From positions 1-64,000 of the forward strand of contig CALXSY010000001.1 of the NCBI GenBank assembly GCA_944391285.1: DNA of 64,000 nt. Direction: 5' to 3'. The notes under the pieces are model-generated. The model did not search any database, had not been told where the DNA came from, and was given only the letters and a program-made list of their open reading frames with translations. The position numbers were made by a program, and so were the translations under genes. The DNA comes from an uncultured Clostridia bacterium (lineage in GTDB: Bacteria; Bacillota; Peptococcia; Peptococcales; Peptococcaceae). This document shows, piece by piece, positions 6,690 to 32,137 of the stretch. The first letter of the stretch is position 1, and each line of letters starts with the position of its first letter.

Positions 6690-6923
6690 TATAGGAAAAT
6701 GCAGTGACGGAAAAGAGTACCTTGTCCAAGCTTTTAAGCGAATTCGGGATGGTGGGAGCCGAAGAAAGCGGAGATAAGGGAAAATCATTCCTGAGCAGAT
6801 AAGGTGAACTAACAGTAGCCTTAGCCGTCTGCCCTCGTTACGGGCGAGAAAGTGCCGGAGAAATCCGGAATAAAGGTGGTACCGCGAGCGCTCTCGTCCT
6901 TAGGGATAGAGAGCGTTTTTTTT
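6690..6923 (+). promoter_or_regulatory. T-box leader (Ile) controlling ileS
   Basis: A tRNA-sensing leader. The conserved T-box sequence aaaggtggtaccgcg lies at 6873-6887, followed by the terminator CGCTCTC/GAGAGCG (6889-6915) and eight Ts (6916-6923). Stem I features are AGAGTA near 6715 and GGTGGGAGCC near 6754. The specifier reads AAA-ATC-ATTCC, giving the isoleucine codon ATC at 6784-6786. Uncharged tRNA-Ile should pair there and stabilise the antiterminator so ileS is read when isoleucine is short. Confidence 0.92.
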
Positions 6924-30168: not shown

Positions 30169-30191
30169 GACATTGCTCAAGTCCTTTTTTT
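30156..30191. terminator. bidirectional terminator between cca and symporter gene
   Basis: AAAAAGGACTTGAG (30156-30169) pairs with CTCAAGTCCTTTTT (30176-30189), flanked by A and T tracts. It contains the cca stop and reaches the stop of the convergent gene. Confidence 0.9.
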
Positions 30192-31737
30192 ATTGAATTT
30201 CTTCACCCAAGGCATCTTTGGCGCTGACCAAAACCTTATGTTCATAGCAGGCAAACATTTCGTCAATTACGTCTTGTTCCTGCTTTTTGCTGATAAGGCT
30301 CACTAAGGGAATGATGATTAGACCGGCGAGCATGACAAAGGCACCGCAGTTAATGGGGGATTGGATGACCGCTGGGAAGTAGGAGTTAAACAAAATATTG
30401 GCGCTCATCACCGCTGTGCTGAAGATAAAGCAGCACCAAACGCTTGCTTTGGTAATCTTTTTGGAGTATAAGCTGTATAATAACGGAGCTAAAAATGCAC
30501 CGGCTAAAGCACCCCAGGAGATGCCCATTAGCTGAGCGATGAAGGTGACATTGCTTTTGTACTGCAAAATAGCGATAATTACCGAAATAGCGATGAAGAT
30601 GATGATAAAGAAACGGATGAAGAAAAGCTGTTTCTTTTCGTCCATGTCTTTAACAACGGTATTTTTTAATAAATCCAAGGTTAAAGTGGAGCTGGAAGCC
30701 AAAACCAAGCTGGATAAGGTAGACATGGAAGCGGAGAGAACCAAAACGATAACGATGGCGATTAATACATCGGGCAAGCCTTCCAGCATGGCGGGAATGA
30801 TGCTGTCGTAGCCATTGGCGGCGATATCAACCTTGTCGCTCATCAAGCGGCCGAATCCGCCTAAAAAGTAGCAGCCGCCGGCAACGATGATGGCAAAAAA
30901 GGTGGAAATAACCGTGCCTTTGCTGATGTCGCTTTCGCTTTTAATAGCGTAAAATTTCTGTACCATCTGCGGCAAGCCCCAAGTGCCTAAGGAGGTTAAA
31001 ATAACTACCGCCAGAAGCGAGAAAGGATCCGGTCCGAAGAAGGAGGCAAATACGCCGGGAATATCGGAAACAGTGGGATCGTTTACTTGAGCTAAGGCGC
31101 TTAAGGAGCCCATGAAACCGCCGTTTAAATTAAGCACGGCAGCGATGATGATGACGATACCGGCTAGCATGATGATGCCTTGGATAAAATCGTTGATGGC
31201 AGTAGCCATGTAGCCGCCGCAGGTGACATAAATAGCCGTTAAAACAGCCATGATGATGATGCAGATGGTGTAGTCAATGCTGAATGCCATGCCAAACAAG
31301 CGGGAAAGACCGTTGTATAGCGAGGCGGTGTAAGGAATAAGAAAGATAAAGATAATAACGGATGCGGCAATTTTTAATTTGGTAGAGTTGAAGCGTTTGC
31401 CGAAGAAATCGGGCATAGTTGCCGAATCTAAATGCTGAGTCATCAAGCGGGTGCGTCTGCCTAAGATTATCCAGGCTAAAAGGGAGCCGATAAAGGCGTT
31501 GCCTAAGCCAATCCAGGTGGAAGCGACACCGAATTTCCAGCCGAATTGTCCGGCGTAGCCGACAAAAATAACAGCGGAAAAGTAGGAAGTGCCGTAAGCA
31601 AAAGCCGTTAACCACGGACCGACGGAGCGGGAGCCCAATACAAAACCATGTACATCACCGGCATTGCGGCGGCAGTAAATGCCGACCCCCAGCATGACAG
31701 CGAAAAATAAAACTAAAACAAAACTTTTGATAAACAT
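30190..31737 (-). CDS. sodium:solute symporter (SSS family), T-box controlled
   Basis: A 515-residue transporter with about thirteen membrane helices and the SSS family pattern: an N-terminal GSRSVGPWLTAFAYGTSYFS, and YVTCGGYMATAINDFIQGI in the middle. It resembles PutP/PanF-type sodium symporters. The leader is a T-box whose specifier appears to be TAC, so the transporter is expected to import tyrosine or a related aromatic amino acid when tRNA-Tyr is uncharged. The substrate is inferred from regulation, not from the protein. GAGAGG precedes the ATG. Confidence 0.88.
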   Translation of the reverse strand: MFIKSFVLVLFFAVMLGVGIYCRRNAGDVHGFVLGSRSVGPWLTAFAYGTSYFSAVIFVGYAGQFGWKFGVASTWIGLGNAFIGSLLAWIILGRRTRLMTQHLDSATMPDFFGKRFNSTKLKIAASVIIFIFLIPYTASLYNGLSRLFGMAFSIDYTICIIIMAVLTAIYVTCGGYMATAINDFIQGIIMLAGIVIIIAAVLNLNGGFMGSLSALAQVNDPTVSDIPGVFASFFGPDPFSLLAVVILTSLGTWGLPQMVQKFYAIKSESDISKGTVISTFFAIIVAGGCYFLGGFGRLMSDKVDIAANGYDSIIPAMLEGLPDVLIAIVIVLVLSASMSTLSSLVLASSSTLTLDLLKNTVVKDMDEKKQLFFIRFFIIIFIAISVIIAILQYKSNVTFIAQLMGISWGALAGAFLAPLLYSLYSKKITKASVWCCFIFSTAVMSANILFNSYFPAVIQSPINCGAFVMLAGLIIIPLVSLISKKQEQDVIDEMFACYEHKVLVSAKDALGEEIQ

Positions 31738-31828
31738 TTCTCAAACCTCTCTTTCAAAAAATTGAAAAGTGGCTGCTTGGAGCATTAAAACCAAGGCTTT
31801 AGAGTGGATCCGGGCTCTAAAATAAACG

Positions 31829-32102
31829 AAAAAAACCGTCCCTGATTACAGGGACGGCTATAAACCGTGTTACCACCTTGCTTTAATTGTACCTTGCGAT
31901 ACAAAACTCGTCAGGCAACCATCATTGCCTCCACGATATAACGGTCGTACCCGTCACAGCCTACTTGCCAAAGCTTTGGGTGTGCAGCTAACGAAATGTA
32001 TTTGGGAATCATACTAACTATCGTTTTTCACCAACCAACGACTCTCTGCAAGCCTTTCTGACTCTTACTTCTTTTCGCTCAACGCCTTTGTGTTTTAAAT
32101 TA
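31829..32102 (-). promoter_or_regulatory. T-box leader (probable Tyr) of the symporter gene
   Basis: Read on the minus strand, the T-box core AAGGTGGTAACACGG lies at 31865-31879 and is followed by the terminator CCGTCCCT/AGGGACGG (31836-31857) and a T-run. Stem I carries AGAGAGTCG and GGTTGGTG, closed by TGCAG/CTGCA. The specifier region reads AAA-TAC-ATT with TAC at 31998-32000, the same frame of neighbours as AAA-ATC-ATT in the ileS T-box of this window. TAC is a tyrosine codon. Confidence 0.88.
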
Positions 32103-32108
32103 GTACAA

Positions 32109-32137
32109 ATAATAGCACAAGGAGCAAAAGTTGTCAA
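32109..32137 (-). promoter_or_regulatory. promoter of the T-box symporter transcript
   Basis: Minus-strand TTGACA (32132-32137), 17-bp spacer, TATTAT (32109-32114). It lies just beyond the nadE stop codon and starts the T-box leader. Confidence 0.88.

Follow-up and report, generated by a model that had tools for sequence, protein, structure and literature searches.

A UAC T-box precedes a sodium:solute symporter gene whose product may import aryl acids for tyrosine synthesis in an uncultured Clostridia bacterium

In a 64,000-nt stretch of DNA from an uncultured Clostridia bacterium (the window), we confirmed that a complete T-box leader, with its own promoter and terminator, precedes a gene of the sodium:solute symporter (SSS) family, and that the specifier codon of this leader is UAC (Tyr). 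Considering the operons in which orthologues of the symporter occur and a second tyrosine T-box operon in the same genome, we think it probable that uncharged tRNA-Tyr switches on a symporter for an aryl acid, 4-hydroxyphenylacetate being the likeliest candidate, and that a route consisting of a CoA ligase and the ferredoxin oxidoreductase IOR (IorA/IorB) rebuilds tyrosine from this acid.

A covariance-model search with Rfam matched positions 32091–31847 of the minus strand to the T-box family RF00230 over the full model (1–219), with 110.8 bits against a gathering score of 93 (E = 1.3e-23). This leader RNA (31847–32091) comprises stem I, the stem II region, stem III and the antiterminator. 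A sigma-70-type promoter, TTGACA-N17-TATTAT (32109–32137, minus strand), lies in front of it, with 11 of 12 consensus matches and a TG before the second hexamer. The T-box core, GGUGGUAACAC (31867–31877, minus strand), contains the bulge UGGU (31875–31872) that pairs with the ACCA end of the tRNA. One terminator hairpin with a T run behind it was found in the leader, an intrinsic terminator of the form CCGUCCCUG-UAAU-CAGGGACGG-U7 (31829–31859, minus strand; hairpin 31859–31834), and because the hairpin and T run overlap the 3′ arm of the antiterminator, the two folds are mutually exclusive. The folding stability of the leader was 3.5 SD above that of shuffled sequences. All of these elements are those of a class-I transcriptional T-box of the tyrS type (RF00230), namely stem I with its specifier loop, the AGNGA and GGUG apical motifs, the core UGGN and the terminator/antiterminator pair. 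The statement in the earlier note that a complete T-box leader stands before an SSS gene is therefore borne out by the RF00230 score, the promoter, the terminator, the core and the SSF open reading frame downstream. A T-box activates its gene in response to uncharged tRNA. We infer that this canonical transcription-terminating leader senses uncharged tRNA-Tyr(GUA) and would switch the symporter on during tyrosine shortage.

The tyrosine specifier had been read by analogy with the ileS T-box of the same window (6695–6904, plus strand; RF00230, 120.8 bits; AUC specifier, with the IleRS open reading frame downstream). Structural alignment to the covariance model agreed with that analogy: where the ileS leader shows AUC, the same columns of the SSS leader show UAC and no different codon (32000–31998, minus strand). 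To this we added a comparison of nine leaders, comprising that of the window's SSS gene, those upstream of its orthologues at loci L060, L069, L076, L096 and L101, that of a ligase–SSS operon (L041), and those of tyrS and the ligase–iorAB operon of the window's own genome. In all nine, including each of the five orthologues, UAC was conserved, and no other triplet of the specifier loop was invariant, which rules out the readings AAU, AUA, ACA and CAU. It is also the specifier of the genome's own tyrS leader, and the tRNA-Tyr of this genome has the anticodon GUA and the discriminator A (A73), complementary to the UGGU bulge. Sequence evidence could hardly make the tyrosine assignment more secure. 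In the Rfam alignment the leader has some non-standard pairs, and a long insertion separates stem I from the antiterminator; this might point to a T-box remnant or a misread codon, and hence to the absence of tyrosine control. Given a score well above the curated threshold, an intact promoter, terminator and core, and the constancy of UAC in the nine leaders, tyrS included, we regard this as extremely improbable.

The gene under the leader (30190–31737, minus strand) encodes a 515-aa protein with a full-length SSF domain (Pfam PF00474; 184.1 bits against a gathering score of 22.8), which we propose as an importer of aryl acids such as 4-hydroxyphenylacetate. Members of the SSS superfamily carry monocarboxylates, vitamins, sugars and amino acids. 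The closest named model was the proline symporter PutP (TIGR02121; 199 bits, cut-off 515.5), and the pantothenate symporter PanF (TIGR02119; 148.3 bits, cut-off 328.05) and the monocarboxylate transporter MctC (NF058657; 72.7 bits, cut-off 670) scored lower still. Since the protein fell below the cut-off of each NCBIfam equivalog, we rejected naming it after any characterised one. It shares the full-length SSF domain with the PutP, PanF, MctC and ActP branches, but unlike them it lies under every characterised equivalog cut-off, and the neighbours of its orthologues are acyl/aryl-CoA ligase and iorAB genes. The solved structures comparable with it are distant SGLT/NIS relatives only, the resemblance to SGLT being weak; transport is presumably coupled to Na+. 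A search of 12 further genomes from the same family at E ≤ 1e-150 recovered no copy of the protein, and the gene may therefore have been acquired by horizontal transfer.

Within the genome collection, at least 592 candidate stretches encoded relatives of the symporter; the 80 loci that we kept are 67–74% identical and mostly from gut and rumen Clostridia. An orthologue at L052 belongs to the cultured Butyrivibrio sp. INlla18. An aryl-related gene (AMP-forming acyl/aryl-CoA ligase, iorA, iorB or paaK) was present in 38 of the 80 loci, and in 24 it was a same-strand neighbour of the SSS gene within 250 bp. Counted per gene, the ligase occurred in 29 loci, iorA in 17, iorB in 15, paaK in 13 and ACT in 8. 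The gene orders included SSS–ligase–iorA–iorB (L083, L074), ligase–SSS–iorA–iorB (L085, L033) and SSS–iorA–iorB–paaK (L029, L077), and adjacency to the ligase was scattered over several separate branches of the SSS protein tree. At the level of whole genomes, the ligase was found in 9 of 10 SSS carriers against 58 of 399 genomes of the phylum overall (hypergeometric P = 1.5e-7, a value that carries no correction for kinship). Likewise, IorA scored above its cut-off in 11 of the 12 SSS-bearing genomes tested but in only 2 of 14 controls; the former include records titled Spirochaetaceae, Synergistaceae and Deferribacteraceae.

A gene for a PF04909 amidohydrolase was present in 24 of the 80 loci. 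It was also seen beside iorA and downstream of an acyl-CoA ligase with an Ile T-box (for example, L108:5981-6781, on contig C14 of the window's genome, G000; and L198:4427-5230). None of the other neighbour families reached 10 loci; the next, C6, with 9 loci, likely consists of antisense open reading frames over iorA, judging from position and strand. The amidohydrolase, the broad substrate range of the SSS superfamily and the failure of the window's protein to pass any equivalog cut-off would all be compatible with transport of some other compound that supplies tyrosine, such as 4-hydroxyphenylpyruvate, 4-hydroxyphenyllactate, a plant phenolic acid, phenylacetate or a peptide. The association with ligase and IOR, however, points to an acid that is activated to its CoA ester before carboxylation, a step that keto or hydroxy acids would not need, and we consider such another compound improbable as the substrate.

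Control by a T-box was a minority state among the orthologues, since a complete tyrosine T-box preceded the SSS gene or a ligase–SSS operon in only 6 of the 80 loci; in a seventh (L073), the T-box core was interrupted by the contig end. Motif matches upstream of the SSS genes of L044 and L077 were judged not to be T-boxes. In three other genomes the tyrosine T-box lies on an SSS–ligase or ligase–SSS operon, and in L060 and L076 the ligase gene follows the SSS gene after a short gap. No T-boxes were found on 11 ligase loci of relatives from the same class.

The assembly of the window's genome (1.70 Mb, rated 100% complete) contains 21 T-boxes. Those with UAC precede tyrS, the window's SSS gene and an acyl/aryl-CoA ligase–iorA–iorB operon, while UUC T-boxes precede pheST, a tyrA–aroB–aroA–aroC–pheA–DAHP synthase operon and paaK–ACT. 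A GUC T-box lies upstream of genes for a cupin/HTH protein and an MbcS-like acyl-CoA ligase, AUC T-boxes precede ileS and a cupin/HTH–MbcS-like fusion gene followed by an amidohydrolase gene, and CUC T-boxes precede a LeuA-like gene and lie upstream of an ATPase–vorABC–ilvE cluster. IorA scored 734 bits (cut-off 650.9) and IorB was also above an equivalog cut-off. The ligase encoded with them, whose gene lies at G000:C6:5347-6987, is AMP-forming, and such ligases are of the activating type; its best model was a long-chain fatty-acid–CoA ligase subfamily, below the cut-off, and the PaaK-like protein was likewise below its own (547 bits, cut-off 646). IlvD was absent from this genome and IlvC never scored above its cut-off, whereas both were detected in 14 of 14 control genomes, which indicates that the usual route to branched-chain amino acids is closed to it. 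With T-boxes on acid-activating ligases, on ligase–iorAB and on paaK, and with ilvC and ilvD not found, the T-box regulon looks largely designed for converting carboxylic acids to amino acids through reductive carboxylation. Several T-box codons in this genome appear to specify the amino acid that the pathway yields, and not the compound on which the controlled protein acts.

Other T-boxes of this genome showed arrangements of their own. The Leu T-box is on the same strand as the ATPase gene and vorABC–ilvE (G000:C6:64475-69535, L124), although a 500-nt gap makes the linkage less certain, and the cluster is a candidate reductive-carboxylation operon. The cupin/HTH proteins under Val and Ile T-boxes, separate from or fused to an MbcS-like ligase (G000:C19:3882-6405, G000:C14:10314-12906), suggest that branched-chain acid activation is under tRNA control. 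Downstream of a Trp T-box (UGG) lie an iron-alcohol-dehydrogenase-like gene and then ABC transporter genes that look like the TrpXYZ type (L106:2204-6362, G000:C35), and a T-box with an apparent Ala specifier (GCA) precedes genes for an Lrp-type regulator and an aminotransferase (L110:3967-5903, G000:C10).

A carrier, an AMP-forming ligase and a ferredoxin oxidoreductase that are switched on by tyrosine shortage are best read as anabolic. In the scheme that we favour, the symporter would bring in an aryl carboxylate, most likely 4-hydroxyphenylacetate; the ligase of the second tyrosine T-box operon would activate it to the CoA thioester; IorA/IorB would reductively carboxylate the aryl-CoA to 4-hydroxyphenylpyruvate; and transamination would yield tyrosine. 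The substrate of the symporter and the direction of the ligase and IOR reactions are predicted from these genes and their regulation. Several observations count against an aryl acid. The SSS gene is the sole gene under its T-box, the ligase–iorAB operon being on another contig; no aryl gene was seen in the locus DNA examined for 42 of the 80 orthologues; and no T-box was found on iorAB in the other genomes with a T-boxed SSS gene. In addition, the ligase family leaves the acid substrate unfixed, and IOR and PaaK are also used in aromatic amino-acid fermentation by other organisms. The same genome also has its shikimate/tyrA/pheA operon under a Phe T-box. We ruled out absence of the shikimate pathway as support for salvage, because the genome encodes chorismate synthase and prephenate dehydrogenase; salvage for tyrosine would then be a non-obligatory, energy-saving or redox option and not the only route.

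The main rival is that the symporter imports tyrosine, or aromatic amino acids in general, and that the neighbouring ligase and IOR ferment the imported amino acid. Transporters under T-box control usually carry amino acids, and tyrosine T-boxes on transporters of the NhaC and other families have been catalogued (PMC2494555). The nearest named SSS model, PutP, is moreover a proline carrier, though its score stays below the cut-off. Like the NhaC-family transporters of Firmicutes, the SSS gene has a tyrosine specifier upstream, but it belongs to another transporter superfamily, and the genes found with it in operons suggest an acid as the substrate. The orthologues form operons with an acid-activating ligase and iorAB; one would not expect tyrosine shortage to turn on genes for fermentation, yet the genome's own ligase–iorAB operon bears a tyrosine T-box; and in the same genome, Val, Ile and Phe T-boxes also stand on acid-activating ligases. 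We therefore consider tyrosine import possible but rather unlikely, and an aryl acid such as 4-hydroxyphenylacetate appears the better-supported substrate. Of the earlier note's proposal that the leader assigns an amino-acid substrate class to the symporter, the T-box, the tyrosine specifier and the SSS gene stand, while the step from the codon to tyrosine as the substrate is insecure, because codons in this genome appear to name products and the orthologues are operonic with the ligase and iorAB.

An IOR-dependent route from aryl acids to aromatic amino acids in Methanococcus maripaludis is cited in PMC4162585, and conversion in rumen cultures of phenylacetate to Phe, and of branched-chain acids to branched-chain amino acids, is cited in PMC7356843. 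The scheme proposed here resembles these routes in its IorAB and CoA ligase, with a transaminase implied, but differs in being bacterial and in having a dedicated SSS symporter and T-box control, and its activity is predicted. The SSS family, to which the gene controlled here belongs, is missing from the transporters tabulated in the 2008 survey of T-boxes (PMC2494555). In the open-access literature searched, we found nothing that links a T-box to reductive carboxylation, phenylacetate-CoA ligase or indolepyruvate; as far as that literature goes, what appears to be new is the combination of RNA and protein families that are themselves known.

Extended to the whole regulon of this anaerobic gut-type bacterium, the favoured scheme would have each uncharged tRNA turn on import, activation and reductive carboxylation of the matching acid (4-hydroxyphenylacetate for Tyr, phenylacetate for Phe and branched-chain acids for Val, Ile and Leu), with the symporter as a dedicated Na+-coupled aryl-acid importer of a family widespread in gut Clostridia, a generalization whose chances we hold to be even. 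T-box codons serve to assign substrates to transporters, and the SSS case suggests that such a codon can stand for the end product of a pathway whose precursor acid is what the carrier moves. Should this hold, gut and rumen Clostridia would have a candidate carrier for aryl acids such as 4-hydroxyphenylacetate and phenylacetate, amino-acid synthesis by reductive carboxylation would have a regulatory signature, and cross-feeding of amino acids by way of acids excreted by other gut microbes could be tested directly.
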